This document shows positions 8,028 through 20,349 of a stretch of 64,000 nt of DNA, in pieces. Source of the DNA: Catellatospora bangladeshensis (GTDB lineage Bacteria; Actinomycetota; Actinomycetes; Mycobacteriales; Micromonosporaceae). The notes under the pieces were generated by a model that worked only from the letters and a program-made list of their open reading frames with translations, did no database searches and was not told where the DNA came from. A program made the translations under genes and the position numbers. Each line of letters begins with the position of its first letter. Position 1 is the first letter of the stretch. The stretch lies in contig NZ_BONF01000040.1 in the NCBI RefSeq assembly GCF_016862575.1, positions 1 to 64,000 on the forward strand, read 5' to 3'.

Positions 8028-9113
8028 GTGTCGGACCAGGATCTCCGCATTGAGAACGTCACCAAGACGTTCGGCGGCTTCACGGCCGTCGACGACCTCA
8101 CCCTGACCATTCCGGACGGCTCGTTCTTCGCGCTGCTGGGCGCCTCCGGGTGCGGCAAGACCACCACGCTGCGCATGGTGGCGGGTCTGGAGGAGCCGAC
8201 CGCCGGGCGGATCACGCTCGGCGGGACGGACATCACCCGGACGCGCCCCTACAAGCGGCCGGTCAACACCGTGTTCCAGAGCTACGCGCTGTTCCCGCAC
8301 CTGAGCGTCGCGGACAACGTGGCGTTCGGGCTGCGGCGCAAGGGGGTGGGCAGGAAGGACGCCGACCGCAAGGTCGCGGAGATGCTCGACCTGGTCCAGC
8401 TCGGCGGCTACGGGCCGCGCCGCCCGGCGCAGCTGTCCGGTGGGCAGCAGCAGCGGGTGGCGCTGGCCCGCGCCCTGGTCAACAGCCCCGAGGTGCTGCT
8501 GCTGGACGAGCCGCTGGGCGCGCTCGACCTGAAGCTGCGCCGGCAGATGCAGATCGAGCTCAAGCGCATCCAGACCGAGGTCGGCATCACCTTCGTGCAC
8601 GTCACGCACGACCAGGAGGAGGCCATGACCATGGCCGACACGGTCGCGGTGATGCAGGCCGGGCGCATCGAGCAGCTGGGCGCGCCCGCCGAGATGTACG
8701 AGTTCCCCGCCTCGGCGTTCGTGGCCAACTTCCTCGGCCAGTCCAACCTGATCCCGGCCGAGGTGACCGGGCACGCCGACGGCGACGTCACGGTCGACGC
8801 GCACGGCAACCGCCTGGCGCTGCCCGCGGCCCGCTGCCGGGTCACCTCCGGCAGCGCGCTGCTCGGCGTACGCCCGGAGAAGCTGCACCTGTGCGACGGG
8901 CTGGACGCGGTGCCCTCGGGCCATGCCGCGGTGCGGGGCGTCATCACCGACACGTCGTTCACCGGCGTCTCGACGCAGTACCTGGTGCGGGCGCCGTGGG
9001 GCAGCGAGCTGACCGTGTTCGTGCCGAACTCGGGCCTGGCCTCCCCGGCCGCGCCGGGCGCCGAGGTGGCGGTGCACTGGCTGCCCGCGCACTCCTTCCT
9101 CGTGGGGAGCTGA
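8028..9113 (+). CDS. potA: Polyamine ABC transporter ATP-binding protein
   Basis: The 361-residue cytoplasmic ATPase has Walker A GASGCGKTT at 38-46, a Q-loop in NTVFQSYALFPHL, signature LSGGQQQR, Walker B VLLLDEPLGALD and the switch His in VTHDQEEAM. A C-terminal TOBE/regulatory domain follows (about 240-361). It energises import through PotB and PotC. It starts with GTG three bases after the binding-protein stop, and the permease gene begins one base after its own stop, so the operon is tight. Confidence 0.95.
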   Translation: MSDQDLRIENVTKTFGGFTAVDDLTLTIPDGSFFALLGASGCGKTTTLRMVAGLEEPTAGRITLGGTDITRTRPYKRPVNTVFQSYALFPHLSVADNVAFGLRRKGVGRKDADRKVAEMLDLVQLGGYGPRRPAQLSGGQQQRVALARALVNSPEVLLLDEPLGALDLKLRRQMQIELKRIQTEVGITFVHVTHDQEEAMTMADTVAVMQAGRIEQLGAPAEMYEFPASAFVANFLGQSNLIPAEVTGHADGDVTVDAHGNRLALPAARCRVTSGSALLGVRPEKLHLCDGLDAVPSGHAAVRGVITDTSFTGVSTQYLVRAPWGSELTVFVPNSGLASPAAPGAEVAVHWLPAHSFLVGS

Positions 9114-9114
9114 C

Positions 9115-10038
9115 GTGGCGGCCCTCCTCCCCACCGCGTCGGCCGGCGGCGCCGTGTCCGCCGAGGTCCCGGTCGAGCCGCCGGCCGGGATGCGGCGGCG
9201 GCGCTGGATCCCGTACGCGCTGCTCGCCCCGGGCATGCTGTGGCTCGCGGTGTTCTTCGTCTACCCCGTGGTCCAGCTGTTCATGGCGAGCCTGTGGAAC
9301 CCTGCCGGGTCGATCGAGACCGGCTACGTGTTCGACTGGTCGTGGAGCAACTACGCCGACGCGTGGGAGATGTTCCACGTCCAGTTCCTGCGCTCGCTCT
9401 GGTATGCGCTGATCACCACGGTGATCTGCCTGGCCCTGGGCTACCCGCTCGCGTACGCCATCGCGATCAAGGGCGGGCGCTGGAAGAACCTCATGCTGGT
9501 CGGCGTGATCGCGCCGTTCTTCACCAGCTACCTGGTGCGCACCTACTCGTGGAAGGCGATCCTGTCCGACAGCGGGCCGGTGGTCGACTTCCTCAAGTGG
9601 GCCCACCTGCTCGGGCCGGACGGACGGCTGCTGGCGACCGAGTTCGCGGTGATCGCGGGCCTGGTCTACAACTTCCTGCCGTTCATGGTGCTGCCGCTCT
9701 ACGCCAGCCTGGACAAGCTGGACGTACGGCTGCTGGAGGCGGCGCGCGACCTCTACCACGGGCCGGTGCGCAGCTTCCTGCGCGTGACGCTGCCGCTGTC
9801 GCTGCCGGGCGTGGTGGCGGGCACGCTGCTGACGTTCATCCCGTCGGCCGGCGACTACGTCAACGCCAACCTGCTGGGCGGGCCGAACACGCAGATGATC
9901 GGCAGCGTGATCCAGTCGCGGTTCCTGGTGGTCAACGACTACCCGATCGCGTCGGCGCTGTCGGTGATGCTGATGGTGACGATCCTGGTGCTGGTGACGG
10001 TCTACGTCAGCACCGCCGGCACGGACGAGGTGGTCTGA
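9115..10038 (+). CDS. potB: Polyamine ABC transporter permease, first subunit
   Basis: The 307-residue integral membrane protein has about six hydrophobic segments and the cytoplasmic EAA-type loop LLEAARDLYHGPVRSFLRVTLPLSLPG that contacts the ATPase. A proline- and arginine-rich cytoplasmic N terminus (about 30 residues) precedes the first membrane helix (PYALLAPGMLWLAVFFVYPV). GTG start one base after potA. Its TGA shares an A with the ATG of potC. Confidence 0.93.
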   Translation: MAALLPTASAGGAVSAEVPVEPPAGMRRRRWIPYALLAPGMLWLAVFFVYPVVQLFMASLWNPAGSIETGYVFDWSWSNYADAWEMFHVQFLRSLWYALITTVICLALGYPLAYAIAIKGGRWKNLMLVGVIAPFFTSYLVRTYSWKAILSDSGPVVDFLKWAHLLGPDGRLLATEFAVIAGLVYNFLPFMVLPLYASLDKLDVRLLEAARDLYHGPVRSFLRVTLPLSLPGVVAGTLLTFIPSAGDYVNANLLGGPNTQMIGSVIQSRFLVVNDYPIASALSVMLMVTILVLVTVYVSTAGTDEVV

Positions 10039-10871
10039 TGCACGCGCTGTGGCGCTGGCTCGCCGACAAGTGGGTGCTCCTGGTCGGCCTGCTGATCCTG
10101 CTGTACCTGTTCGTCCCCATCGCGGTGATCTTCCTGCTGTCGTTCAACCAGCCCGGCAGCCGCAACACGACCTACGTGCTCGACCTCCAGACGTTCGACT
10201 TCACCTGGAACAACTGGACCGACATGTGCGGCGCGGCCGGGATCTGCGACGCGCTGCTGCGCAGCATCTACATCGGGTTCGGGGCGACGCTGATCTCCAC
10301 GATCCTGGGCACGCTCATCTCATTCGCGCTGGTCAGGTATCGCTTCTTCGGGCGTTCGGGCACGAACACCCTGATCTTCCTGCCGATGGCCACGCCGGAA
10401 ATCGTGATGGGCACCTCGTTGTTGACCCTGTTCATAGGGTGGCAGGTGCCGCTGGGCTTCTTGACGATCCTCATCGCGCATGTCATGTTCTGCATATCGT
10501 TTGTGGTGGTCACCGTGAAGGCACGGCTGGCCGGGCTCGATCCGAGGCTGCAGGAGGCGGCGATGGACCTGTACGCGACGCCGTGGCAGGCGTTCCGTCT
10601 GGTCATCCTGCCGCTCGTGCTGCCCGGCATCGTGGCCGCCTCGCTGCTGGCGTTCTCGCTCAGCTTCGACGACTTCATCATCACGAACTTCGTGACCGGC
10701 ACCAGCGGCTACGAGACCTTCCCGATGTTCATCTGGGGGTCCAACCTGCGCGGCATCCCGCCGCAGGTCAACGCCATCGCCAGTGCCATGTTCCTGATCT
10801 CGTTCGCGTTCGTCATCGCGGGCCAGCTGCGCAACCGCCGCCGCTCCGCCCGCCGCGCGGCGACTTCCTAA
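10038..10871 (+). CDS. potC: Polyamine ABC transporter permease, second subunit
   Basis: The 277-residue integral membrane protein has six probable transmembrane helices and an EAA loop (LQEAAMDLYATPWQAFRLVILPLVLPG). The SFDDFIITNFVTG segment is typical of PotC. The start is the ATG in TGATG at the potB stop, giving a one-base overlap. A strong terminator follows the stop, so the transporter operon probably ends here. Confidence 0.93.
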   Translation: MHALWRWLADKWVLLVGLLILLYLFVPIAVIFLLSFNQPGSRNTTYVLDLQTFDFTWNNWTDMCGAAGICDALLRSIYIGFGATLISTILGTLISFALVRYRFFGRSGTNTLIFLPMATPEIVMGTSLLTLFIGWQVPLGFLTILIAHVMFCISFVVVTVKARLAGLDPRLQEAAMDLYATPWQAFRLVILPLVLPGIVAASLLAFSLSFDDFIITNFVTGTSGYETFPMFIWGSNLRGIPPQVNAIASAMFLISFAFVIAGQLRNRRRSARRAATS

Positions 10872-10878
10872 GTCTCTG

Positions 10879-10938
10879 AACGGCCGCCGACCCGGCCTCC
10901 ACGCCTGATTCGTGGAGGTGCCGGCTCGGCGGCCGTTT
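10879..10938 (+). terminator. Intrinsic terminator after potC
   Basis: A long interrupted hairpin. The left arm 10879-10903 contains CGGCCGCCGA and CCTCCACG; the right arm 10911-10938 contains CGTGGAGG and TCGGCGGCCG. The loop is CCTGATT. It closes the potABC transcription unit. Confidence 0.75.
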
Positions 10939-11027
10939 GGCATCCCCGGACATTCCGTTTATCAGGGGATTAATCAGGAAAAAGGAGCGTCACCCGCTCC
11001 CGGGTAATAGAAGGAGGAGATCGGCTC

Positions 11028-12440
11028 ATGCGGGCCAAAGGATCAAAACTGTGGGCGTCGGCGCTTGCGGATGCGTCGCCGACGCCGTACTGGACGGACC
11101 GGCCCGAGCGGCCGGCACCCGTGCCCCCGCTGACCAGCGCGACCACCGCGCAGCTGGCGGTGATCGGGGGCGGCTACAGCGGCCTGTGGACGGCCCTGCT
11201 GGCCAAGGAGCGCGACCCGTCGGCCGACGTGGTCCTGCTCGAATCGGGGGTGTGCGGCCACGCCGCCTCCGGCCGCAACGGCGGCTTCTGCTCCGCGAGC
11301 CTGACCCACGGGCTCGCCAACGGGGTGGACCGCTTCCCGGACGAGATCACCGAGCTGGAACGGCTCGGCCGGGAGAACCTCGACCAGATCGAGGACACGC
11401 TGGGCCGGTACGCCATCGACTGCGACTTCGAGCGCACCGGTGAGCTGGAGGTGGCCACCTCCGCGTACCAGCTGGACTGGCTGCACGAGTCGGCGGAGCT
11501 GACCCGGTCGATGGGTTACCGGGCCGAGGTGTTCGACCGCGACCAGGTGCGGGCGCAGGTCGACTCGCCCACCTACCTGGGCGGCTGGTGGGATCGCGAC
11601 CGGGTGGCCATGGTCGACCCGGCGAAGCTGGCCTGGGGCCTGCGCCAGGCGTGCCTGTCGCTGGGCGTGCGCATCTACGAGGGCACCCCCGTCCTCGGGC
11701 TGAGCAGCGGGCGCGACGGGCTCACCCTGCGCACGCCGCACGGCGAGGTGCGCGCGGCGAAGGTCGCGCTGGCGACCAGCGCCTTCGGGCCGCTGCTGCG
11801 CAAGCTCAAGCGCTACCTGATCCCGGTGTACGACTACGCCCTGATGACCGAGCCGCTGTCCCCGGCGCAACTCGGTGACCTGGGCTGGGCCAACCGGCAG
11901 GGGCTGGGCGACTCCGCCAACCAGTTCCACTACTACCGGCTCACCGCGGACAACCGGATCCTGTTCGGCGGCTACGACGCGATCTACCACTTCGGCAACC
12001 GCATCGCGCCCACCCTCGAACAGCGAGAAGCCACCTTCGACCGGCTGGCCGAGCACTTCTTCACCACGTTCCCACAGCTGGAGGGGCTTCGCTTCACCCA
12101 CAGCTGGGGCGGGGTGATCGACACCTGCACCCGGTTCTGCGCCTTCTTCGGCACGGCCTTCGGCGGGCGGCTGGCCTACGCGGCCGGCTACACCGGGCTG
12201 GGCGTCGGGGCGACCCGCTTCGGCGCGCAGGTGATGCTCGACCACCTCAGCGGTGCGGCCACGGCGCGGACGGAGCTGGACTTCGTCCGGTCCAAACCCT
12301 GGCCGCTGCCCCCGGAGCCGCTGCGCTCGCTCGGCATCCAGCTCACCCGCTGGTCGCTGGCGCGCGCCGACGAGCACCAGGGACGGCGCAACCTCTGGCT
12401 GCGCACGCTGGACCACGCCGGGCTCGGCTTCGACTCCTGA
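11028..12440 (+). CDS. FAD-dependent oxidoreductase (DAO family), second copy
   Basis: The 470-residue protein has an N-terminal extension of about 40 residues, then LAVIGGGYSGLWTALLAKER (FAD-binding Rossmann motif), HAASGRNGGFCSASL, and a C-terminal AAGYTGLGVGATRFGAQ segment. It is the same broad family as the 254-1567 protein but clearly diverged. AGAAGGAGGAG lies upstream of the ATG. It probably oxidises another amine of the polyamine route or an N-methylated amino acid; the substrate cannot be read from sequence. It has its own terminator at 12449-12474. Confidence 0.85.
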   Translation: MRAKGSKLWASALADASPTPYWTDRPERPAPVPPLTSATTAQLAVIGGGYSGLWTALLAKERDPSADVVLLESGVCGHAASGRNGGFCSASLTHGLANGVDRFPDEITELERLGRENLDQIEDTLGRYAIDCDFERTGELEVATSAYQLDWLHESAELTRSMGYRAEVFDRDQVRAQVDSPTYLGGWWDRDRVAMVDPAKLAWGLRQACLSLGVRIYEGTPVLGLSSGRDGLTLRTPHGEVRAAKVALATSAFGPLLRKLKRYLIPVYDYALMTEPLSPAQLGDLGWANRQGLGDSANQFHYYRLTADNRILFGGYDAIYHFGNRIAPTLEQREATFDRLAEHFFTTFPQLEGLRFTHSWGGVIDTCTRFCAFFGTAFGGRLAYAAGYTGLGVGATRFGAQVMLDHLSGAATARTELDFVRSKPWPLPPEPLRSLGIQLTRWSLARADEHQGRRNLWLRTLDHAGLGFDS

Positions 12441-12448
12441 CCCCCCGT

Positions 12449-12474
12449 CCCGCGTCCCTCCGTGGGGACGCGGG
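12449..12474 (+). terminator. Hairpin between the FAD oxidoreductase and the dehydrogenase-like gene
   Basis: Perfect 10-bp stem CCCGCGTCCC/GGGACGCGGG with a six-base loop. It lies right after the stop at 12440 and may limit read-through into the next gene. Confidence 0.65.
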
Positions 12475-12538
12475 AGAAACACAACTGAATGACGCACCTT
12501 TCGTGGCAAATGTCCGCCACGACGTTGAAGGGACTTTT

Positions 12539-13801
12539 ATGCGTATCCTGCTGGTCGGCGCTGGTGGCGTCGGCAGTGCAGCAGCCGCCATCGCCGCTCG
12601 CCGTGACTTCTTCCAGCTCATGGTCGTGGCGGACTACTCCCTGGAGCGGGCCCAGCGCGCCGTCTCCGGGCTCGACGACCGCTTCGTGGCGGCCCGGATC
12701 GACGCGTCGCAGGCCGGCGACGTGGCCGAGCTGTGCCGCACCCACGGCATCACGCACGTGCTGAACGCGGTCGACCCTCGGTTCGTGATGCCGATCTTCG
12801 ACGGCGCCTTCGAGGCCGGCGCGGACTACCTCGACATGGCCATGTCGCTGTCCCGCCCGCACCCCGTCGAGCCGTACGCCAAGACCGGCGTGATGCTCGG
12901 CGACGAGCAGTTCGGCAAGGCCGTCGCGTGGGAGGCGGCCGAGCGGCTCGCCCTGGTCGGCATCGGTGTGGAACCCGGCCTGTCCGACGTCTTCGCCCGC
13001 TACGCCGCCGACCACCTGTTCTCCGAGATCGACGAGATCGGGGTGCGGGACGGTTCCAACATCACCGTGGACGGGTTCGACTTCGCGCCGTCGTTCTCCA
13101 TCTGGACCACCATCGAGGAGTGCCTCAACCCCCCGATCGTCTGGGAGCGCGAGCGCGGCTGGTTCACCACCGCCCCGTTCAGCGAGCCCGAGGTGTTCGA
13201 CTTCCCGGAGGGCATCGGGCCGGTCGAGTGCGTCAACGTGGAGCACGAGGAGGTGCTGCTCATCCCGCGCTGGGTCGACGCGCGGCGGGTCACCTTCAAG
13301 TACGGCCTCGGCACCGAGTTCATCGAGATCCTGAAGACGGTGCACAAGCTCGGCCTCGACTCCACCCGGCCGATCGCCATCGGCGGCGGCAAGACGCAGG
13401 TCATGGTGTCGCCGCGGGACGTGCTGGCCGCGCAGCTGCCCGACCCGGCCACGCTGGGCTCCCGCATGAAGGGCAAGACCTGCGCCGGGACCTGGGTCAA
13501 GGGCAAGGGCCTGGACGGCAAGGCCCGGGAGCTGTACCTCTACCACGTCGTCGACAACGAGTGGTCCATGCGCGAGTACGGCCACCAGGCCGTGGTGTGG
13601 CAGACCGCGGTCAACCCCGTGGTGGCGCTGGAGCTGCTGGCCGGCGGCGCGTGGCAGGGCACCGGCGTGCTCGGCCCCGAGGCGCTGGACCCCGTGCCGT
13701 TCCTGGACCTGCTGACGGCGTACGGCTCGCCCTGGGGCATGCGCGACCAGCAGCCGTTCCGGGCGCTGCCCCAGCCCGCCCGGGAGCAGATCGCGGCCTG
13801 A
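12539..13801 (+). CDS. Saccharopine dehydrogenase-family oxidoreductase
   Basis: The 420-residue protein opens with a dinucleotide-binding motif (MRILLVGAGGVGSAAAAIAA) and continues with a saccharopine-dehydrogenase-type catalytic domain (GIGVEPGLSDVFARYAADHL, then a large C-terminal half). The family includes saccharopine reductase, lysine 6-dehydrogenase and carboxy(nor)spermidine dehydrogenase. With oxidases and a transporter for polyamines around it, a role in making or breaking an N-(aminoalkyl) bond is plausible but inferred. The ATG at 12539 was chosen; an in-frame ATG at 12503 lacks support. Confidence 0.75.
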   Translation: MRILLVGAGGVGSAAAAIAARRDFFQLMVVADYSLERAQRAVSGLDDRFVAARIDASQAGDVAELCRTHGITHVLNAVDPRFVMPIFDGAFEAGADYLDMAMSLSRPHPVEPYAKTGVMLGDEQFGKAVAWEAAERLALVGIGVEPGLSDVFARYAADHLFSEIDEIGVRDGSNITVDGFDFAPSFSIWTTIEECLNPPIVWERERGWFTTAPFSEPEVFDFPEGIGPVECVNVEHEEVLLIPRWVDARRVTFKYGLGTEFIEILKTVHKLGLDSTRPIAIGGGKTQVMVSPRDVLAAQLPDPATLGSRMKGKTCAGTWVKGKGLDGKARELYLYHVVDNEWSMREYGHQAVVWQTAVNPVVALELLAGGAWQGTGVLGPEALDPVPFLDLLTAYGSPWGMRDQQPFRALPQPAREQIAA

Positions 13802-13813
13802 CCGGCCGAGTGA

Positions 13814-13865
13814 CTTTGCTCTGCACACAAATACGCATCAGTGCGTATTTGTGTGCAGAGCAAAG
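13814..13865. terminator. Perfect 24-bp hairpin, family member 1
   Basis: Left arm 13814-13837 and right arm 13842-13865 are perfect reverse complements with loop TCAG. The arms begin CTTTGCTCTGC and end AATACGCA. A second element with the same outer and inner blocks but a different, still paired, middle lies at 27367-27419. Here it separates the dehydrogenase-like gene from the Y-RNA promoter. Confidence 0.85.
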
Positions 13866-13890
13866 CGGGTCGGGCCGGTTGACAATTCCG

Positions 13891-13919
13891 TTGCCGGACA
13901 GCGGGCGGCGACCTAGCCT
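13891..13919 (+). promoter_or_regulatory. Promoter of the first Y-like RNA
   Basis: A -35 box TTGCCG (13891-13896), a 17-base spacer and a -10 box TAGCCT (13914-13919) put the start of transcription near 13926, at the base of the Y1 stem. The promoter at 14217-14245 uses the same -35 and spacing. Confidence 0.65.
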
Positions 13920-13926
13920 GATTGTC

Positions 13927-14069
13927 GCGTCTTCCGGTGCGCAGGCAGCGGATACTTCTTCCTGATCAGCGGGTCGCGGGTTCGAATCCCGCTCGGGCCC
14001 TTCGGGTCCGGTAGCTCAGCTGGCAGAGCAGCCGACTGTGCCGCAGCCGACTTCGATCTCGGAAGACGC
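13927..14069 (+). ncRNA. Y-like RNA 1 with circularly permuted tRNA-like module
   Basis: The terminal stem GCGTCTTCCG (13927-13936) pairs with CGGAAGACGC (14060-14069). An internal loop GTGCGCA opposite GACTTCGATCT follows, then an 8-bp stem GGCAGCGG (13944-13951)/CCGCAGCC (14041-14048) with one A-A mismatch. The distal part mimics tRNA in permuted order. It has a T arm GCGGG-TTCGAAT-CCCGC (13976-13992), an acceptor-like 7-bp stem (13993-13999 with 14005-14011) closed by CTTCG, then T8-A9 and a D arm GCTC-AGCTGGCA-GAGC (14014-14029). This is the architecture known for bacterial YrlA RNAs, which bind Ro60. It lies upstream of the Ro60 gene. Confidence 0.88.
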
Positions 14070-14070
14070 T

Positions 14071-14185
14071 CACACGGCCGACGCGGTGCGCCGGTGACGG
14101 TTACACCATGGAGGCCGCCTGTGCGGCCTGTGAAGTGACCCGGTGACGGGCACCGTCGCCACCTCGATCTCGCGTCGGCCGTGTC
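14071..14185 (+). ncRNA. Y-like RNA 2
   Basis: The terminal stem ACACGGCCGACGCG (14072-14085) pairs perfectly with 14171-14184. The internal loop GTGCGCC opposite ACCTCGATCT is nearly the same as in Y1. The second stem GGTGACGG (14093-14100) pairs fully with CCGTCGCC (14153-14160). Instead of a tRNA mimic, the distal part has a 7-bp hairpin AGGCCGC-CTGT-GCGGCCT (14112-14129) and a small CCCG-GTGA-CGGG hairpin. It starts two bases after Y1 with no visible promoter of its own, so it may be processed from a shared precursor. Confidence 0.75.
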
Positions 14186-14216
14186 ACGTCTCCGCAGCGC
14201 CGCCGGGCTAAATGCG

Positions 14217-14245
14217 TTGCCGCGCAACGGGGCCGGACCTAGATT
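14217..14245 (+). promoter_or_regulatory. Promoter of the third Y-like RNA
   Basis: A -35 box TTGCCG (14217-14222), a 17-base spacer and a -10 box TAGATT (14240-14245) would start transcription close to 14252, one base before the Y3 stem. Confidence 0.65.
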
Positions 14246-14252
14246 CATCTCC

Positions 14253-14343
14253 GCACCTCCCGGTGCGCTGGCAGCGGTTACTTCTTTGGGTGAAGCCGGT
14301 TCGATCCCGGCAAGACCGCCGCCGACCTGATCTCGGGAGGCGC
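14253..14343 (+). ncRNA. Y-like RNA 3, short form with a T arm only
   Basis: The terminal stem GCACCTCCCG (14253-14262) pairs with CGGGAGGCGC (14334-14343). The internal loop GTGCGCT opposite GACCTGATCT and the second stem GGCAGCGG (14270-14277)/CCGCCGCC (14316-14323, one mismatch) match Y1. The distal part keeps only a T-arm-like hairpin GCCGG-TTCGATC-CCGGC (14295-14311); no D arm or acceptor stem is visible. It ends 64 bases before the Ro60 start codon, so it could also lie in the mRNA leader. Confidence 0.78.
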
Positions 14344-14407
14344 GTCTCCCTTCCCGTACCCCATGGGTGGGTTTCGCGCGCCCGCCGAACCCCTTGGGGG
14401 AGGGGAC

Positions 14408-15937
14408 ATGGCAAAGTTCAACCTCGCGACGCTGGTGAAGCGCCCGGCCGGCAAGACCGCCGAAGGCGCGCCCGGCTACGACCGCGAGCCGAGGCTGGAG
14501 CTGTTCCTGCTGGCGGTCTCGAACATGGTCGGCGAGCAGACGTTCTACGAGCACGCCGGTGACCGCGACACCCGCTTCCGCGAGCTGATCGCGAAGGTGG
14601 CTGTGGCCGACCCGGCCTGGTTCGCGCGCTTCGTGCCTTGGCTGCGGCTGGGCGCCAACCTGCGCAGCGCCTCCGTGGTGGCCGCGCTGGAGGGTGCGAA
14701 GGCACAGGTCGCGGCCGGCATCCCCGGTTCGCGGGCGATGGTCGACGCCGCACTGCAGCGGGCCGACGAGCCCGGCGAGGCGCTGGCGTACTGGCTGTCC
14801 ACGTACGGCCGGGCGCTGCCCAAGCCGGTGAAGCGCGGTGTAGCCGACGCGGCCGTGCGCCTGTACCACGAGCGCAGCCTGCTCAAGTACGACTCCGACA
14901 GCCACGCGCTGCGCTTCGGTGACGTGCTGGAGCTGACCCACCCCACGGCGCGCGACGCGGCGCAGGGTGAGCTGTTCCGGCACGCGCTGGACCGGCGCCA
15001 CCAGCGGGACAACCCGATCCCGGAGGCGCTGGGCGTGCTGCGGGCCCGGGCCGAGCTGATGGCGCTGCCGGTGGCGGAGCGCGCGGCCGTGCTCGACCCG
15101 CGGGTGCTGGCGGCTGCCGGGATGACCTGGGAGGCGCTGGCCGGCTGGCGGCAGGGGCCGCTGGACGCGGCGGCGTGGTCGGCGATGATCCCGTCCATGG
15201 GCTATCTGGCGCTGCTGCGCAACCTGCGCAACTTCGACCAGGCCGGGGTGGGTGACGAGGTCGCGGAGGCCGTGGCGGCGAAGCTGTCCGATCCGGACGA
15301 GGTGGACCGGTCGCGGGTGCTGCCGATGCGCTTCCTGTCGGCGTACAACGCGGCGCCGAGCCTGCGCTGGGCGTACCCGCTGGAGAAGGCGCTGCAGTTC
15401 GCGCTGGGCAACGTGCCTCGGCTGGACGGCCGCACGCTGATCCTCATCGACACCTCGGGGTCGATGAACAGCACCTTCAGCCGTGACGGCTCGCTGCGCT
15501 GCTGGGACGCGGCCACCATGTTCGGGCTGGCGCTCGCGGCACGGGCGAAGGACGCGACGGTGGTGTCGTTCTCCAACGACACGAAGGTCTTCGACCTGCG
15601 TGCGGGGGAGTCGGTGCTGTCGGCGGTGAAGCGGTTCAAGGACGGCGGCTGGTTCTTCGGCGGCGGCACGTCGACCGAGCACGCGGTGCGCAAGCACTAC
15701 GCGCGCCACGACCGCGTCGTGATCCTCACCGACGAGCAGGCCCACTGGGGCGGCGCCGCCGACGTGGCCGCCTCGGTGCCCGCGACGGTCCCGGTCTACA
15801 CCTGGAACCTCGCCGGCTACCGCCTCGGCCACACCCCCGTCGCGGGCCGCCGCTACACCTTCGGCGGCCTCACCGACGCCGCCTTCACCATGATCGGCCT
15901 GATCGAGTCCGGCGAGTCGGCCACCTGGCCCTTCTGA
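14408..15937 (+). CDS. rsr: Ro60-type TROVE/vWA RNA-binding protein
   Basis: The 509-residue length is close to bacterial Ro60 (Rsr) proteins. Residues from about 20 to 330 form the HEAT-like TROVE ring that binds Y RNA on its outside and misfolded RNA ends through its hole. The C-terminal von Willebrand A domain has the metal site DTSGS at 348-352 (LILIDTSGSM) and the conserved VVILTDEQAHWGG. The start ATG follows GGGGGAGGGG. In characterised bacteria Ro60 with Y RNA acts in RNA decay, rRNA maturation and stress survival, often with PNPase; no rtcB or PNPase gene lies nearby here. Three Y-like RNAs directly upstream make the assignment firm. Confidence 0.93.
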   Translation: MAKFNLATLVKRPAGKTAEGAPGYDREPRLELFLLAVSNMVGEQTFYEHAGDRDTRFRELIAKVAVADPAWFARFVPWLRLGANLRSASVVAALEGAKAQVAAGIPGSRAMVDAALQRADEPGEALAYWLSTYGRALPKPVKRGVADAAVRLYHERSLLKYDSDSHALRFGDVLELTHPTARDAAQGELFRHALDRRHQRDNPIPEALGVLRARAELMALPVAERAAVLDPRVLAAAGMTWEALAGWRQGPLDAAAWSAMIPSMGYLALLRNLRNFDQAGVGDEVAEAVAAKLSDPDEVDRSRVLPMRFLSAYNAAPSLRWAYPLEKALQFALGNVPRLDGRTLILIDTSGSMNSTFSRDGSLRCWDAATMFGLALAARAKDATVVSFSNDTKVFDLRAGESVLSAVKRFKDGGWFFGGGTSTEHAVRKHYARHDRVVILTDEQAHWGGAADVAASVPATVPVYTWNLAGYRLGHTPVAGRRYTFGGLTDAAFTMIGLIESGESATWPF

Positions 15938-15940
15938 GGA

Positions 15941-15992
15941 AAGGAAGGGCACCTTCTTAACGCTATGCGTAGTAGAAGGTGCCCTTCTTAAC
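15941..15992. repeat. GTTAAGAAGG element, copy 2 of 3
   Basis: Reverse-complement orientation of the element at 221-275, sharing the spacer CTACGCATAGC. The two GAAGG(T/G)GC units are inverted to each other and give a strong hairpin directly after the Ro60 stop, so it is a likely terminator. Confidence 0.75.
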
Positions 15993-16038
15993 CTCCGCAT
16001 CCGCCGTGGCGCTTCCGGAGGGCTGCCGCAGAGCGCAT

Positions 16039-16100
16039 GATCGCTGGTTCGTGTCCAAATACGTGGCTTGACTTGCGCTTTCTGACACGAGACGGCGATC
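16039..16100. repeat. 61-62 bp dispersed palindrome, copy 2 of 5
   Basis: Begins GATCGC, ends GCGATC, with TCGTGTC and GACACGA outer arms. The inner stem is weaker than in the other copies. It is paired with a GTTAAGAAGG element 46 bases away, as copy 1 is at the left end of the window. Confidence 0.75.
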
Positions 16101-16121
16101 TTGACCCGGCGGCTCTTCCTT

Positions 16122-17405
16122 TTAGGCGGTGGTGGCGAGGGCCTGGTCGAGGATGGTGAGGCCGCGGTCGAGTTCGTCGTCGGAGATGACGAGCGGCGGG
16201 AGGAAGCGGAAGACGTTCCCCCAGGTGCCGCAGGTCAGGGTGAGCAGGCCGGCGGCGTGGCAGACCTTGTTGACCGCGCCGGTCAGGATCGGGTCGGGGT
16301 CGAGCGTGCCGGGCTTGGTCAGCTCGATGGCGATCATCGCGCCGCGGCCGCGTACCTGCGCGATCTGCGGGTACTTGTCGGCCAGCGTGGTCAGGCGCTC
16401 GGTGAGCACCCCGCCGATGCGGCGGGCCGCGGCGGCCAGGTCCAGCTCGCGCATGGTCTCGATGGAGGCCAGGGCGGCGGCGCAGGCGATGGGGTTGCCG
16501 CCGTACGTGCCACCGAGCCCGCCGACGTGCACCGCGTCCATCACCTCCGCGCGGCCGGTCACCGCCGCGAGCGGCAGGCCGCCCGCGATGCCCTTCGCCG
16601 TGGTGATCAGATCGGGCACCACCTGCTCGTGCTCGCTGGCGAACCAGTCGCCCGTACGGCAGAACCCGGTCTGGATCTCGTCGGCGACGAACAGCGCACC
16701 GTTGGCCGAGGCCCAGGATGCGAGCGCGGGCAGGAAGCCGGGCGCGGGGACGACGAAACCGCCCTCGCCCTGGATCGGCTCGATCACGATCGCGGCCACG
16801 TTCTGCGCCCCGACCTGCGTCGTGATCACGTCGATGGCGCGGGCGGCGGCCTGCTCGCCGGTGAGGCCGTCACGCAGCGGGTACGACATCGGCGCGCGGT
16901 ACACCTCCGGCGCGAACGGGCCGAACCCGTGCTTGTACGGCATGTTCTTCGCGGTCAGCGCCATGGTCAGGTTCGTCCGGCCGTGGTAGCCGTGCTCGAA
17001 CACGATCACCGCCTGCCGCCCGGTGGCGTACCGGGCGATCTTCACGGCGTTCTCGACGGCCTCCGCACCGGAGTTGAACAGCGCGGAGCGCTTCTCGAAG
17101 CCGCCCGGCGTGAGCGAGTTGAGCTGCTCGCACACCGCCACGTACGACTCGTACGGCGTCACCATGAAGCAGGTGTGCGTGAAGCGCTCGACCTGCTCGC
17201 GTACCGCCGCGACGACCGCCGGGGCGCTGTTGCCCACGTTGGTGACGGCGATCCCGGCCGCGAAGTCGATCCACTCGCGCCCGTCGACGTCGGTCAGCGT
17301 CCCGCCGGAGGCGCGGTCCACGTAGGAGGACAGCACGGAGCCGACGCCGCGGGCGACGGCTCCGGTGCGCCGGGCGTGGATCTCGGAGGATGTGCTCACG
17401 ATCAT
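16122..17405 (-). CDS. gabT: 4-aminobutyrate aminotransferase
   Basis: The 427-residue class III PLP enzyme has Schiff-base lysine K271 (ITTAKGIAGG), pyridine-nitrogen D242 (LFVADEIQTGFCR), and the GabT-like SGAEAVENAVKIARYATGR and GYHGRTNLTMALTAK segments. It converts GABA and 2-oxoglutarate to succinate semialdehyde and glutamate. The ATG at 17405 overlaps the stop of the upstream aldehyde dehydrogenase by four bases (ATGA), so they form a coupled pair. Together they take gamma-aminobutyraldehyde to succinate semialdehyde. A GTG at 17399 is an alternative start. Confidence 0.9.
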   Translation of the reverse strand: MIVSTSSEIHARRTGAVARGVGSVLSSYVDRASGGTLTDVDGREWIDFAAGIAVTNVGNSAPAVVAAVREQVERFTHTCFMVTPYESYVAVCEQLNSLTPGGFEKRSALFNSGAEAVENAVKIARYATGRQAVIVFEHGYHGRTNLTMALTAKNMPYKHGFGPFAPEVYRAPMSYPLRDGLTGEQAAARAIDVITTQVGAQNVAAIVIEPIQGEGGFVVPAPGFLPALASWASANGALFVADEIQTGFCRTGDWFASEHEQVVPDLITTAKGIAGGLPLAAVTGRAEVMDAVHVGGLGGTYGGNPIACAAALASIETMRELDLAAAARRIGGVLTERLTTLADKYPQIAQVRGRGAMIAIELTKPGTLDPDPILTGAVNKVCHAAGLLTLTCGTWGNVFRFLPPLVISDDELDRGLTILDQALATTA

Positions 17406-18841
17406 TCCCCGATGCTGTGCATGACGTGCTTGATCCGGGTGTAGTCCTCCAGCCCGTAGGCCGACAGGTCCTTGCCGTACCCGGACTGCTTGAAGCCGCC
17501 GTGCGGCATCTCTGCCACCAGCGGGATGTGCGTGTTCACCCAGACACAGCCGAAGTCCAGCCGCCTGCTCAGGCGCATCGCGCGGCCGTGGTCGGCCGTC
17601 CACACGCTGGAGGCCAGGCCGTAGCGGCAGTCGTTGGCGTAGCGCAGCGCCTCGGCCTCGTCGGCGACCTTCTGCACGGTGATGACCGGGCCGAACACCT
17701 CGTCGGTGACGATCTCGTCGCCCTGGAGCAGGTCTGCCACGACGGTCGGGGCGAAGTAGAAGCCCCGGTCGCCGACCCGCTCGCCGCCGGTGGTGACCCG
17801 GGCGTGCGCGGGCAGCCGCTCGATGAAGCCGGTGACCCGGGCGAGCTGGTTGACGTTGTTCAGCGGGCCGTAGAGCACGTCCTCGTCGTCGGGCGCGCCG
17901 GTCTTGAGGTTGCGGGCCTGCTCGGTGAGCGCGTCGACGAAGGCGTCGTACGCCCCCTCGGTGACCAGCACCCGGGTGGCGGCGGTGCAGTCCTGGCCCG
18001 CGTTGAAGAACCCGGCGATGGCGATGCCCTCGGCCGCGGCGGCCACGTCGGCGTCGTCGAACACCAGGACCGGGGCCTTGCCGCCCAGCTCCAGGTGGGT
18101 GCGCTTGAGCGCGGGCGCGGCCGAGGCGGCGACCTCGGAGCCGGCGCGGGTGGAGCCGGTGATGGAGACCAGCGCCGGGGTCGGGTGCGCGACCAGGGCG
18201 CGGCCGGTGTCCCGGTCGCCGCAGACGACGTTGAGTACGCCCGGCGGCAGGAACTCGGCGGCGATCTCGGCCAGCAGCAGTGTCGACATCGGCGTCGTGT
18301 CGGACGGCTTGAGCACCACCGTGTTGCCCGCCGCGATCGCCGGGGCGAACTTCCACACGGCCATCATCAGCGGGTAGTTCCACGGCGTGACCTGCGCGAC
18401 CACGCCGATCGGCTCGCGGCGCACGTAGCTGGTCAGGCCGGCCATGTACTCCCCGGCGGAGCGGCCCTCCAGCAGCCGGGCGGCCCCGGCGAAGAAGCGC
18501 AGCTGGTCGATCGCGGGCGGCAGCTCCTCGCTCGCGGTCAGGTGCAGCGGCTTGCCGGTGTTGCGGCTCTCCAGCGCGACCAGCTCGTCCGCCCGCGCCT
18601 CGACGGCGTCGGCGATCTTCAGCAGGGCCTTCTGGCGCTCGCTCGGCGTGGTGTCCCGCCAGCTCTCAAAGGCGGCGGCCGCGGCGGCCATGGCGTCCTC
18701 GACGTCCTGCTTGCCGGAGACGGGCGCGCTCGCGAGCACCTCGCCGGTGCACGGGTCGACCAGGTCGGCGTAGCCGCCATCCACGGGGGCCACGTACTTT
18801 CCGTTGATGAAGTTGGCCAGTTTCTCTGTCATCGGTGGCAT
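17402..18841 (-). CDS. Gamma-aminobutyraldehyde dehydrogenase-like NAD(P) aldehyde dehydrogenase
   Basis: The 479-residue ALDH has the cofactor motif TPWNYPLMMAVWKFAPA, the general-base Glu in HLELGGKAPV and the catalytic Cys in FNAGQDCTAATRV. The C-terminal EMPHGGFKQSGYGKDLS matches the aminobutyraldehyde/betaine-aldehyde group. Coupled to gabT downstream, it most likely makes GABA from the aldehyde produced by putrescine oxidation or transamination. The ATG at 18841 has GAGG eight bases upstream; a second ATG at 18832 would be three codons in. Divergent from the next aldehyde dehydrogenase gene across 74 bases. Confidence 0.88.
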   Translation of the reverse strand: MPPMTEKLANFINGKYVAPVDGGYADLVDPCTGEVLASAPVSGKQDVEDAMAAAAAAFESWRDTTPSERQKALLKIADAVEARADELVALESRNTGKPLHLTASEELPPAIDQLRFFAGAARLLEGRSAGEYMAGLTSYVRREPIGVVAQVTPWNYPLMMAVWKFAPAIAAGNTVVLKPSDTTPMSTLLLAEIAAEFLPPGVLNVVCGDRDTGRALVAHPTPALVSITGSTRAGSEVAASAAPALKRTHLELGGKAPVLVFDDADVAAAAEGIAIAGFFNAGQDCTAATRVLVTEGAYDAFVDALTEQARNLKTGAPDDEDVLYGPLNNVNQLARVTGFIERLPAHARVTTGGERVGDRGFYFAPTVVADLLQGDEIVTDEVFGPVITVQKVADEAEALRYANDCRYGLASSVWTADHGRAMRLSRRLDFGCVWVNTHIPLVAEMPHGGFKQSGYGKDLSAYGLEDYTRIKHVMHSIGE

Positions 18842-18915
18842 AGCGCTATCCTCGCGACGAAATCCGCAACCAGCAAGGGTCTTGAGCAACTGTTTTCGTG
18901 CAGTAGGGTGGGCAT

Positions 18916-20349
18916 ATGGCCGATCAGACCCCGTACTGGATCGCGGGCTCCCCGGAGTCGAGCGACGACACCGTCGTCATCCGTAACCCCTACGACGGGC
19001 GGGTGGTCGGTCAGACCGCCAACGCTACGCCTGCGCAGGTCGAAACCGCGGTCGCCGCAGCGGCCAAGGCCGCGCCGGAAGGCGCCCGGCTGCCCGCCGC
19101 CGCCCGCGCCGCCGCCCTCGACCACGTGAGCCGCCGCCTGACCGAGCGGGGCGACGAGATCGCCGCGCTGATCTCCGGCGAGAACGGCAAGCCGCTGATG
19201 TGGGCCAAGGCCGAGCTGGGCCGGGCCGCGTCCACCTTCCGCTGGGCCGCCGAGGAGGCGCGCCGCTTCTCCGGCGAGCTGATGCGGCTGGACACCGACC
19301 CGGCGGCCGCCGGGCGGATGGCGGTGGTGCGCCGCTTCCCGAAGGGCCCGGTGCTGGGCATCAGCCCGTTCAACTTCCCGCTGAACCTGGTCGCGCACAA
19401 GGTCGCCCCGGCGATCGCGGTCGGCGCCCCGATCGTGGTCAAGCCCGCCCCGGCCACCCCGCTGTCCGCGCTGCTGCTCGGCGAGCTGCTGGCCGAGACG
19501 GACCTGCCCCCGGGCATGTTCTCCTTCATCCCGCTGCCCAACGACCGGGCGGCGGCGCTGGCCGCCGACCCGCGGCTGCCGGTGGTCTCCTTCACCGGGT
19601 CGGGGCCGGTCGGCGCGGCGATCCAGGCGGCCGTCCCGCACAAGCACGTCACGCTGGAGCTGGGCGGCAACGCCGCGGCCGTGGTCTGCGGCGACTACCG
19701 CGACCTGTCCTGGGCAGCGCAGCGCATCGCGCTGTTCAGCAACTACCAGGCGGGGCAGAGCTGCATCGCGGTGCAGCGCGTCATCGTGCACCGCGACCAG
19801 GCGGAGGCGTTCGTGCCGAAGCTGGTCGAGGCGGTGCGCGGGCTGAAGACCGGCGACCCCGCCGCGGCCGACACCCAGGTCGGGCCGCTGATCAACGAGG
19901 CGGCGGCGGAGCGGGTCGAGAGCTGGGTCGGCGAGGCGGTGGCCGCCGGGGCACGGGTGCTCGTGGGCGGCACCCGCGACGGCGCGAACTACGCCCCGAC
20001 GGTGCTGGCCGACGTGCCCGCCGACGCGAAGGTCGCCTGCGACGAGGTGTTCGGGCCGGTGCTGGTGGTGTCCGTCGTCGACTCCGACGAGGCCGCGTTC
20101 GCGGCCGTCAACGACTCCGCCTACGGATTGCAGGCGGGCGTGTTCACGTCCGACCTGCAGACGGCGTTCGCGGCGCACGCGACGTTGCAGGTGGGCGGGG
20201 TGATCGTGGGTGACGTGCCGTCGTTCCGTGCCGACCAGATGCCGTACGGCGGGGTGAAGGGCTCCGGCACCGGCCGCGAGGGCCTGCGCAGCGCCATGGA
20301 CGACTACACCGACCCCCGAGTGATGGTGCTCACGGGCCTCCAGCTCTGA
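18916..20349 (+). CDS. Aldehyde dehydrogenase family protein, possibly succinate-semialdehyde type
   Basis: The 477-residue ALDH has SPFNFPLNLVAHKVAPAIAVG, general-base Glu in VTLELGGNAAAVV and catalytic Cys in YQAGQSCIAVQRV. These motifs differ from the two aminoaldehyde dehydrogenases and resemble the non-phosphorylating glyceraldehyde-3-phosphate or short-chain semialdehyde branch. Facing gabT across a shared promoter region, it is the best local candidate for succinate-semialdehyde oxidation, but this is inferred. The ATG follows TAGGGTGGG. A terminator follows at 20380-20418. Confidence 0.8.
   Translation: MADQTPYWIAGSPESSDDTVVIRNPYDGRVVGQTANATPAQVETAVAAAAKAAPEGARLPAAARAAALDHVSRRLTERGDEIAALISGENGKPLMWAKAELGRAASTFRWAAEEARRFSGELMRLDTDPAAAGRMAVVRRFPKGPVLGISPFNFPLNLVAHKVAPAIAVGAPIVVKPAPATPLSALLLGELLAETDLPPGMFSFIPLPNDRAAALAADPRLPVVSFTGSGPVGAAIQAAVPHKHVTLELGGNAAAVVCGDYRDLSWAAQRIALFSNYQAGQSCIAVQRVIVHRDQAEAFVPKLVEAVRGLKTGDPAAADTQVGPLINEAAAERVESWVGEAVAAGARVLVGGTRDGANYAPTVLADVPADAKVACDEVFGPVLVVSVVDSDEAAFAAVNDSAYGLQAGVFTSDLQTAFAAHATLQVGGVIVGDVPSFRADQMPYGGVKGSGTGREGLRSAMDDYTDPRVMVLTGLQL

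Follow-up and report, generated by a model that had tools for sequence, protein, structure and literature searches.

The window, a 64,000-nucleotide stretch of Catellatospora bangladeshensis DNA, contains what is, judged by its sequence, a Ro60 ribonucleoprotein locus, with one Ro60 ring protein encoded behind three Y RNAs (Table 1). The unusual feature of this locus, unnoticed in an earlier note on the same DNA, is that the distal ends of the Y RNAs imitate pieces of a tRNA to differing degrees: RNA1 carries three tRNA-like arms, RNA3 an anticodon-arm-like hairpin and a T arm, and RNA2 a hairpin of its own.

Table 1. Features of the Ro60 locus (positions in the window).
Feature	Position	Strand	Basis
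Promoter-like element TTGCCG-17-TAGCCT, before RNA1	13891..13919	+	pattern scan
Y RNA 1 (RNA1): Ro60-type stem and three-arm permuted tRNA-like module (open type, YrlA-like)	13927..14069	+	R1 (match 13926-14070, 111.7 bits, E 2.8e-21), Rfam YrlA, covariation
T arm of RNA1, GCGGG-TTCGAAT-CCCGC	13976..13992	+	aligned to Rfam YrlA T hairpin
Acceptor-like hairpin of RNA1, small closing loop, no CCA end	13994..14010	+	YrlA alignment, covariation
D arm of RNA1, GGTAGCTCAGCTGGCAGAGC	14010..14029	+	YrlA alignment, covariation
Y RNA 2 (RNA2): common core and non-tRNA hairpin module	14071..14185	+	R1 (match 14075-14181, 47.3 bits, E 9e-7), fold z -5.0
Promoter-like element TTGCCG-17-TAGATT, before RNA3	14217..14245	+	pattern scan
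Y RNA 3 (RNA3): common core, anticodon-arm-like hairpin and T arm	14253..14343	+	R1 (match 14252-14344, 59.7 bits, E 1.4e-9); R2 73.8 bits, not independent, as R2 was built with RNA3 included
RNA3 hairpin CTTC-TTTGGGT-GAAG, 4 bp and 7-nt loop	14281..14295	+	best hairpin at fixed anchor
T-arm-like hairpin of RNA3, GCCGG-TTCGATC-CCGGC	14295..14311	+	fold
Ro60 leader; UCCCUUCCC beside RNA3 can pair with a Shine-Dalgarno-like stretch	14345..14405	+	MFE folds
Ro60 orthologue, TROVE and vWA-like, 509 aa	14408..15937	+	PF05731 51.4 bits

The earlier note had placed three RNAs at the intervals listed for RNA1, RNA2 and RNA3, and all three are found there. The covariance model R1, built from 23 relatives without the window, recovers each of them in the 8.8-Mb genome. 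A common core, an outer stem followed by GGUGCG opposite (C/U)GAUCU and then an inner stem, is present in all three; the inner stem, described in the note as 8 bp long, is unbroken in RNA2 and interrupted by an A-A or A-C mismatch in RNA1 and RNA3. Covariation among the three RNAs, which had been offered in support, is a weak argument because three paralogues are few, but real covariation is supplied by the relatives. In RNAalifold consensus structures, the stems are preserved by double changes, counted where both bases of a pair differ in one sequence or more: 20 of 41 pairs in RNA1 (with 12 relatives), 8 of 26 in RNA2 (with 10 relatives) and 7 of 13 in RNA3 (with 25 relatives). The thermodynamic fold is strong in RNA2, which none of 200 shuffles equalled, and weak in RNA1 (z -2.0, 7/200 shuffles at least as good) and RNA3 (z -1.8, 9/200). 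As expected of bacterial Y RNAs, all lie next to Ro60 and possess a terminal stem with a bulge and an internal loop, and it is probable from these common elements that they dock on Ro60. At gathering scores, Rfam has no match anywhere in the window. Within the genus, all seven genomes with a Ro60 at least 85% identical to that of the window (the window genome counted) contain R1 matches above 90 bits, and the four remaining genomes have none above 40 bits.

The TROVE protein predicted next to the RNAs lies directly downstream, where PF05731 matches above its cut-off of 23 bits, the best stretch covering residues 253-316 only. The vWA region is matched by PF25045 (21.5 bits) and PF13519 (22.7 bits), both under their cut-offs; DTSGS is readable in the translation, and seven relatives all keep its D, S and S. 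The TROVE domain-containing proteins 9l5y and 9kop are relatives in the PDB (E 9e-33). An alternative ATG at 14363 would give a protein of 524 aa.

RNA1 aligns with the Rfam YrlA model (RF02553) over model positions 1-114 of 114, with 40.3 bits and an E-value of 2.5e-7, which is under the gathering score of 69. As in YrlA, the T arm of RNA1 is followed by a closed acceptor hairpin and then by a D arm, an arrangement supported by covariation; an anticodon arm is absent. RNA3 has one T arm and lacks the full YrlA module. Its 7-nt-loop hairpin departs from the commonest loop (U32, U38) and shares one G with the T stem. No T arm was found in RNA2, and a YrlA search of RNA2 and RNA3 up to E 10 gave no match. 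Relatives of RNA2 occur in Catellatospora and Micromonospora, and its module has no recognised partner.

The tRNA parts become more complete among the Y RNAs of related loci (a pool of 219 members, 214 of them distinct in sequence). At a fixed anchor, the best hairpin has a 7-nt loop in 86 of 218 Y RNAs, compared with a mean of 6.4 and a maximum of 16 in shuffles. These hairpins were picked blind to the loop letters, and their loops show C32 in 67, U33 in 74, A or G37 in 77 and A38 in 60 cases. Among Y RNAs shorter than 110 nt, such a loop is the best hairpin in only 21 of 64. Of 157 Y RNAs with a T arm, 62 have a complete anticodon arm ahead of it (61/154 after removal of identical sequences), while the reversed-segment control gave 0/157; U33 and A38 were demanded by this search, the blind frequencies being those of the 86 hairpins. 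The full set of arms amounts to a four-arm cloverleaf, which is supported by covariation: both partners differ in 28 of 42 pairs, with a score of 0.482 versus 0.167 shuffled and 0.05-0.125 slid. YrlA has no match at gathering in 15 related loci or in 5 phage loci.

Could these intervals be decayed tRNA genes or chance folds? ARAGORN makes 32 tRNA calls overlapping Y RNAs, spread over 28 of 80 named loci, and the Rfam tRNA model exceeds its gathering score once, with 36.1 bits, spanning two adjacent Y RNAs of locus L116. Within the window there is neither an ARAGORN call nor an Rfam tRNA match at gathering, and the permuted tRNA parts sit inside covarying stems with R1 E-values down to 3e-21, which leaves this explanation highly improbable. 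Caution is nevertheless advisable with tRNA annotations, since some of the genes so labelled are Y RNAs, among them two phage genes annotated as tRNA-Arg.

Tentatively, actinobacterial Ro60 loci might be regarded as a kit of tRNA-mimicking parts that share one docking scaffold and expose the surfaces of tRNAs, anticodon loops among them, to enzymes that attack or repair tRNA; the modules were perhaps captured from tRNA arrays. The kit would comprise a full four-arm cloverleaf whose anticodon triplet is free to vary, a three-arm form, anticodon plus T arm, and the anticodon hairpin only. The permuted order equals the junction of tandem tRNA genes, where the second half of one is followed by the first half of the next, so that capture from arrays is possible. 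Twelve of 60 family loci have an array of tRNA genes no more than a few kb away. Six phage Ro60 genes were examined: four lie among tRNA genes and a fifth adjoins an RNA ligase; upstream of Ro60 in these six loci the motif scan found nothing where covariance models matched.

The same observations bear on a rather unlikely alternative, in which the tRNA-like ends, chiefly those with an anticodon arm, act as decoys that bait or inhibit anticodon nucleases and tRNA-attacking toxins, so that real tRNAs are protected while Ro60 stabilises or presents the bait. The loops favour conserved letters at 32, 33, 37 and 38, and positions 34-36 vary, with 23 triplets among the 62 full anticodon arms; bait for several nucleases therefore fits better than decoding. 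The location of loci beside tRNA arrays, in bacteria and phages alike, is consistent with this, and the authors of PMC7790460 propose, in the passages concerned, that the tRNA-like domain of YrlA could inhibit an anticodon nuclease. However, according to the same passages YrlA does not serve that nuclease as a substrate, RNA1 of the window carries no anticodon arm, and acceptor and T arms are not obviously needed for bait.

The earlier note considered three Y RNAs unusual, which does not hold: by motif scan, at least three are present in 26 of 80 named actinobacterial Ro60 loci, and three Catellatospora relatives have five. A single Y RNA was counted in 16 of the 80, so a set is not obligatory. 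A first, looser motif scan gave 105 matches upstream and, counted across entire loci, 18 on the opposite strand. Of the 105, 99 were retained; five of the six discarded lacked GGTGCG, and one lay within a gene of the window (13038-13208). A match in locus L169 without the conserved UACUUC was excluded from the promoter, module-mix and locus counts. The strand of loci L003-L032 and L093-L111 was assigned by tblastn. A single species contributes two contigs, L116 and L117, which have the same Y RNA layout, so the loci are not fully independent. Of 12 named loci without a motif match, 11 had R1 or R2 matches; L177 is the only named locus without a Y RNA by motif scan, R1 or R2. A second Ro60 (C19) that seemed to lack Y RNAs in motif scans was ruled out as such a case, since R1 and R2 find one 275 nt upstream.

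What does stand is the claim that the distal parts of Y RNAs beside one Ro60 diverge. Long tRNA-like modules and other modules are mixed in 44 of 52 loci with several Y RNAs, compared with a shuffled mean of 33.8, a count reached by 1 in 2000 shuffles that ignore common descent. It is plausible that the Y RNAs form a set of adaptors, for which this mixing provides indirect support. An array could also be a by-product of tandem duplication, its RNAs doing the same job while their ends drift; relatives contain between one and five copies, and many neighbouring copies abut. Against such redundancy, which appears improbable, speak the mixed loci, the TTCRA loops retained in distal T arms, and five of six phage loci in which three consecutive covariance-model matches of long and short kinds, some of them weak, precede Ro60.

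The layout of promoter-like elements suggests how the RNAs are made. The pattern class found before RNA1 and RNA3 occurs ahead of 13 of 68 first Y RNAs and of 15 of 31 Y RNAs with a preceding gap of at least 35 nt, and ahead of none of the 59 that start at most 20 nt after the previous one; in shuffles its value is 0.12 or less. RNA2 begins 1 nt after RNA1, and the promoter scan found no element belonging to it. From motifs and spacing, the likeliest arrangement is a joint transcript for RNA1 and RNA2, with RNA3 made separately from a second promoter that lies within the Ro60 leader.

RNA3 lies within this leader, its 3' end 64 nt upstream of the Ro60 start. Of the 68 named loci that have a Y RNA, 29 show a gap of 20-60 nt between the end of the last such RNA and the point where the Ro60 match begins. 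Both facts, together with the possible pairing of the Shine-Dalgarno-like stretch, would suit a mainly cis-acting RNA3, to which Ro60 binds as a Y element in its own mRNA, thereby controlling translation or cleavage. A similar leader fold is seen by MFE in loci L113, L114, L115 and L118. However, the hairpin is lost in L116, the pairing is weak because the fold of the leader as a whole does not surpass that of shuffles (z -0.57), and RNA1 and RNA2 are left unexplained, which makes a mainly cis-acting role doubtful. It is compatible with the handover to enzymes proposed below.

We lean, by a little over even chances, towards a reading in which Ro60 carrying different Y RNAs is handed to different, mostly tRNA-handling enzymes, one ring thereby taking on several jobs in RNA quality control, with damaged tRNAs perhaps as the substrates. 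The ends on show would be the T, acceptor and D arms of RNA1, the 7-nt-loop hairpin and T arm of RNA3, and the hairpin of RNA2. Each enzyme would recognise the tRNA parts that it normally binds; candidates are nucleases such as PNPase, tRNA-modifying enzymes and tRNA-repair enzymes. Speaking for this reading are the identity of the locus, the co-occurrence of close Ro60 orthologues and R1 matches in the genus, the tRNA-like modules, the mixed loci, the tRNA genes near loci of bacteria and phages, and the precedents in which a Y RNA tethers Rsr to PNPase and YrlA is a substrate of TruB and DusA. Against it stand the RNA2 module with no recognised partner, the deviating hairpin of RNA3, the small share of 7-nt loops in short Y RNAs, the loci with a single Y RNA, the lack of an anticodon arm in RNA1, the position of RtcB on another contig, and the absence of a tRNA gene near Ro60 in the window. 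With tRNA pieces side by side on one Ro60, the partners of the effector ends could be tested by removal of single modules. Anticodon arms on RNAs that are probably non-decoding would furthermore connect Ro60 with damage to tRNAs and with the conflict between phages and their hosts.

Among known systems, YrlA resembles RNA1 in that a T arm, a closed acceptor hairpin and a D arm follow one another on a Y stem. It differs in that RNA1 remains below gathering, RNA2 and RNA3 are unmatched, and the anticodon arms of the relatives are missing from its consensus. Vertebrate Y RNAs are not known to contain tRNA parts. They share with the window RNAs a lower stem with a bulge and an internal loop as the Ro60 site and a modular upper part, and bacterial Y RNAs are described as non-homologous to the vertebrate clades (PMC4726728, in the sections concerned). 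According to the relevant parts of PMC8394870 and PMC4726728, a Y RNA tethers Rsr to PNPase in Deinococcus radiodurans (RYPER), and YrlA is a substrate of TruB and DusA; RYPER likewise combines a Ro60 orthologue with a Y RNA, whereas the window has three RNAs with different ends. The Salmonella rsr-yrlBA-rtcBA locus, as outlined in PMC7790460, also has more than one Y RNA beside Ro60 and a link to tRNA damage, but there the Y RNAs lie downstream of rsr and are linked to rtcBA, while those of the window precede Ro60 and RtcB is present in the genome on a different contig. In Listeria phage CKA15, three highly transcribed regions lie at most 2 kb upstream of an Rsr-like gene, and the authors suggest that at least one of them is a Y RNA; unlike the window set, these putative Y RNAs are described in the passages concerned of PMC12282133 without structures or tRNA parts. 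Finally, the tRNA array units of mycobacteria and phages are of the kind found near Ro60 and Y RNAs in the 12 family loci above. The terms Ro60, TROVE and Y RNA are absent from the main text of PMC5966550, yet the link to phages is implicit in print, since group G4 of these units corresponds to cluster C mycobacteriophages (PMC5966550, as excerpted) and cluster C phages encode a Ro60-like protein (PMC12363180, as excerpted).

The genome harbouring the window is Catellatospora-like and 8.8 Mb in size. Each of the three Y RNAs that precede its Ro60 gene (RNA1, RNA2 and RNA3) has GGUGCG opposite (C/U)GAUCU between an outer and an inner stem. This internal loop is predicted to be partly paired, with a G-C pair, a UG/AU step, CG/CG and a bulged U, and as modelled it resembles in outline the bulged site at which Y RNAs bind Ro60. 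Folding energy alone is modest for RNA1 and RNA3, and relatives were therefore gathered for a comparative test. A Ro60 match is present in 62 of 200 genomes of the window's family and in 16 of 396 genomes drawn from the phylum, the window genome being counted in both. A set of 80 named loci was taken from one scan (the best 80 of 377 confirmed loci); within it, the Ro60 of C. sichuanensis is the closest match to the window Ro60 (91%).

A covariance model built from 23 Y RNAs of relatives, with the window excluded (R1), was searched against the whole genome and recovered the three window RNAs at E-values of 2.8e-21, 1.4e-9 and 9e-7. The remaining matches at E ≤0.001 fall on two tRNA-gene junctions and on the Y RNA belonging to a second Ro60. 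All seven Catellatospora genomes with a Ro60 at least 85% identical, the window genome included, have R1 matches above 90 bits, and none above 40 bits occurs in the other four genomes of the genus. Compensatory changes in relatives support all three folds, with both sides changed in 20 of 41 predicted pairs for RNA1, 8 of 26 for RNA2 and 7 of 13 for RNA3. The second Ro60, a paralogue with 71% identity, is preceded at a distance of 275 nt by a short Y RNA (39.1 bits with R1, 52 bits with R2, a second model that includes RNA3); inspection by eye suggests a further, degenerate one.

Reading frames around the Ro60 unit (window 8028-20349), judged by eye, are ABC transporter-, oxidoreductase-, aminotransferase- and aldehyde dehydrogenase-like, with no evident RNA link among them; a saccharopine dehydrogenase-like gene lies immediately 5' of the unit. 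The perfect inverted repeats that flank it are possibly terminators.

Features of the Ro60 loci and related elements
Feature	Location	Remarks
RNA1, RNA2, RNA3	window 13927-14069, 14071-14185, 14253-14343 (+)	Y RNAs
Ro60	window 14408-15937	TROVE and vWA-like protein; same strand as the Y RNAs
Inverted repeat	window 13814-13865	24-nt arms
Inverted repeat	window 15944-15987	14-nt arms
Second Ro60	C19:51819-53656 (L036, L232)	other contig of the same genome
C11 element	C11:206154-206502 = L231:1655-2003	two tandem hairpins with tRNA-like caps, terminator-like hairpin
4'-Phosphopantetheinyl transferase gene (PF01648)	L113:3199-3819 (minus)	C. sichuanensis; antisense
Phage tRNA-Arg annotations read as Y RNAs	L241:3639-3784 (NC_073474); L239:3762-3912 (PP725410)	covariance model
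tRNA-array loci near Y RNAs and Ro60	L042, L051, L052, L066, L067, L068, L071, L074, L083, L084, L085, L090

Three Y RNAs at one locus had been considered unusual, which does not hold. A motif scan of the named loci (best 80 of 377) found zero, one, two, three, four and five Y RNAs in 12, 16, 26, 14, 9 and 3 loci, respectively, and thus at least three in 26 of 80. These counts are minimum values, because R1 and R2 detect Y RNAs in 11 of the 12 loci left empty by the scan. Four or five are present in the Catellatospora relatives whose Ro60 is close, which places the window at the low end for its genus. In C. sichuanensis, the transferase gene listed in the table lies between the fourth and fifth Y RNA; three relatives have a gap of 651-667 nt at this site.

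The distal end of RNA1 contains a T arm, an acceptor hairpin and a D arm, in this order, and the Rfam YrlA model aligns to it from end to end with a score under the cut-off. Many Y RNAs of relatives additionally carry a complete anticodon arm 5' of the T arm. When the best hairpin beginning at the conserved UACUUC was taken without preselection of loops, its loop was exactly 7 nt long in 86 of 218 Y RNAs (mean 6.4 and maximum 16 in 100 shuffles). These 86 loops have C32 in 67 cases, U33 in 74, A or G37 in 77 and A38 in 60, and positions 34-36 are variable. A full arm, defined as an anticodon-like loop followed 3-8 nt downstream by a T arm, was found in 62 of 157 Y RNAs with a T arm (61 of 154 after removal of identical sequences) and in 0 of 157 with the segment reversed; 23 different anticodon triplets occur. 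Alignment of 23 anticodon-arm Y RNAs with an unguided fold returned the Ro60 stem and four tRNA arms. Both partners differ in 28 of its 42 pairs, and the alignment reaches a covariation score of 0.482, compared with 0.167 when shuffled and at most 0.125 when slid. Among 64 Y RNAs shorter than 110 nt, the best hairpin has a 7-nt loop in 21 and another loop length in 23, and the rest have none. RNA3 is one of these 21, with CUUC-UUUGGGU-GAAG followed by a T arm, and RNA2 shares a different hairpin module with its Micromonospora relatives. At the Rfam gathering threshold, 15 related loci gave no YrlA match and one tRNA match, which in L116 runs from the end of one Y RNA into the beginning of its neighbour. 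Three Y RNAs of another family, probably Streptomyces (L097, L098, L102), seem by eye to bear a long variable arm like that of type II tRNAs such as tRNA-Leu.

tRNA genes also accompany Ro60 at some loci. Within a few kb, 6 to 36 tRNA calls occur in 12 of 60 family loci (L033-L092), whose Ro60s are 49-61% identical to that of the window. One strand of L238 carries thirty tRNA genes, then three Y RNAs and finally Ro60. The window contains no tRNA gene, and none of the 80 named loci (best 80 of 377) has more than three tRNA calls; 32 calls in 28 of these loci are the Y RNAs themselves.

A Ro60 match was found in 86 of 50,697 phage records, and six of these were examined at this gene. tRNA genes surround Ro60 in GiJojo, Atuin, BRock and Neville (about 7 to 22 per stretch). 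In Kela an annotated RNA ligase adjoins it, with one tRNA gene at greater distance, and the sole annotated tRNA of the VanLee stretch is a Y RNA. The tRNA-Arg annotated directly 5' of Ro60 in VanLee and GiJojo coincides with R1 matches (110.1 and 47.7 bits) and is not matched by the Rfam tRNA model at gathering; both annotations are therefore read as Y RNAs. Three consecutive R1 or R2 matches precede Ro60 in GiJojo, BRock, Neville, VanLee and Kela, and some are weak, with E-values of 0.086 (BRock), 0.042 (VanLee) and 0.018 (Kela) for the weakest. Atuin shows two matches, both 3' of Ro60.

Positions 32-108 of R1, its tRNA part, also hit junctions of consecutive real tRNA genes. Of nine such matches in L238, eight were checked: all start at position 27-30 of a tRNA, and in seven the match runs to position 24-29 of the tRNA that follows, the gene after the eighth not being among those listed. 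The Y module therefore has its arms in the same permuted order as a tRNA-gene junction, which suggests that the module arose by capture from one.

R1 also matched another contig of the window's own genome, C11 (E 0.0012 and 0.025). The element found there lies behind a DUF7873 gene and has a pair of long hairpins in tandem, both ending in a permuted tRNA-like module in which a T arm comes first, then a closed acceptor hairpin and a D arm; a terminator-like hairpin follows 3' of them. All 11 of the 11 Catellatospora genomes have the element, including three that lack a Ro60 match, as do 35 of 101 family genomes at E <1e-12. Rfam YrlA matches it weakly (27.5 and 23.4 bits). Its fold is less well tested, as only 7 of 100 predicted pairs change on both sides among five sequences. 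The element may be a Y-like RNA with a different protein partner, a side finding of possible weight.

Neighbouring Y RNAs are separated by at most 20 nt in 59 of 93 intervals and by at most 3 nt in 14; among the 59 close neighbours, the outer stem of the second is longer in 42 and shorter in 11. A promoter-like element (TTG-16/18-TANNNT, 2-12 nt 5' of the Y RNA) precedes 13 of 68 first Y RNAs, 15 of 31 that lie at least 35 nt behind their neighbour and none of the 59 that follow a neighbour within 20 nt; shuffles give at most 0.12. The other 55 first Y RNAs lack it in the form searched. In the window it precedes RNA1 and RNA3, the latter within the Ro60 leader, and is absent at RNA2, which trails RNA1 by 1 nt. 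RNA1 and RNA2 are therefore probably a single transcript, afterwards cut or retained as a double Y RNA. What the analysis shows is the RNAs with their common core, their tRNA-like ends and the genes around them; Ro60 binding, separate transcripts and separate partners are inferred. Module types are mixed in 44 of 52 loci with several Y RNAs (mean 33.8 after shuffling, with 1 in 2000 shuffles reaching the observed value), which argues for a division of labour, in a shuffle that takes no account of the copies' common descent.

In the open-licence papers searched, no mention was found of bacterial Ro60 beside tRNA arrays or of Y RNAs with anticodon arms. tRNA-like ends on bacterial Y RNAs are already known (Chen et al. 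2014, as cited by others), and three highly transcribed regions 5' of an Rsr-like gene in a Listeria phage are a published candidate (PMC12282133). TROVE proteins of jumbo phages have been discussed together with RNA repair (PMC7824862), and the tRNA arrays and Ro60-like protein of cluster C mycobacteriophages have been reported separately (PMC5966550, PMC12363180). There are precedents for how such RNAs could work: a Y RNA tethers Rsr to PNPase, and YrlA is modified by TruB and DusA (both PMC8394870, PMC4726728); it has also been proposed that YrlA might inhibit an anticodon nuclease (PMC7790460). Unlike the anticodon-arm Y RNAs of relatives, the Rfam YrlA consensus (RF02553) has no anticodon arm. 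In the solved YrlA structure, the Y stem is attached where the anticodon stem would be, which is the arrangement of the open type found here in RNA1, with its three-arm module.
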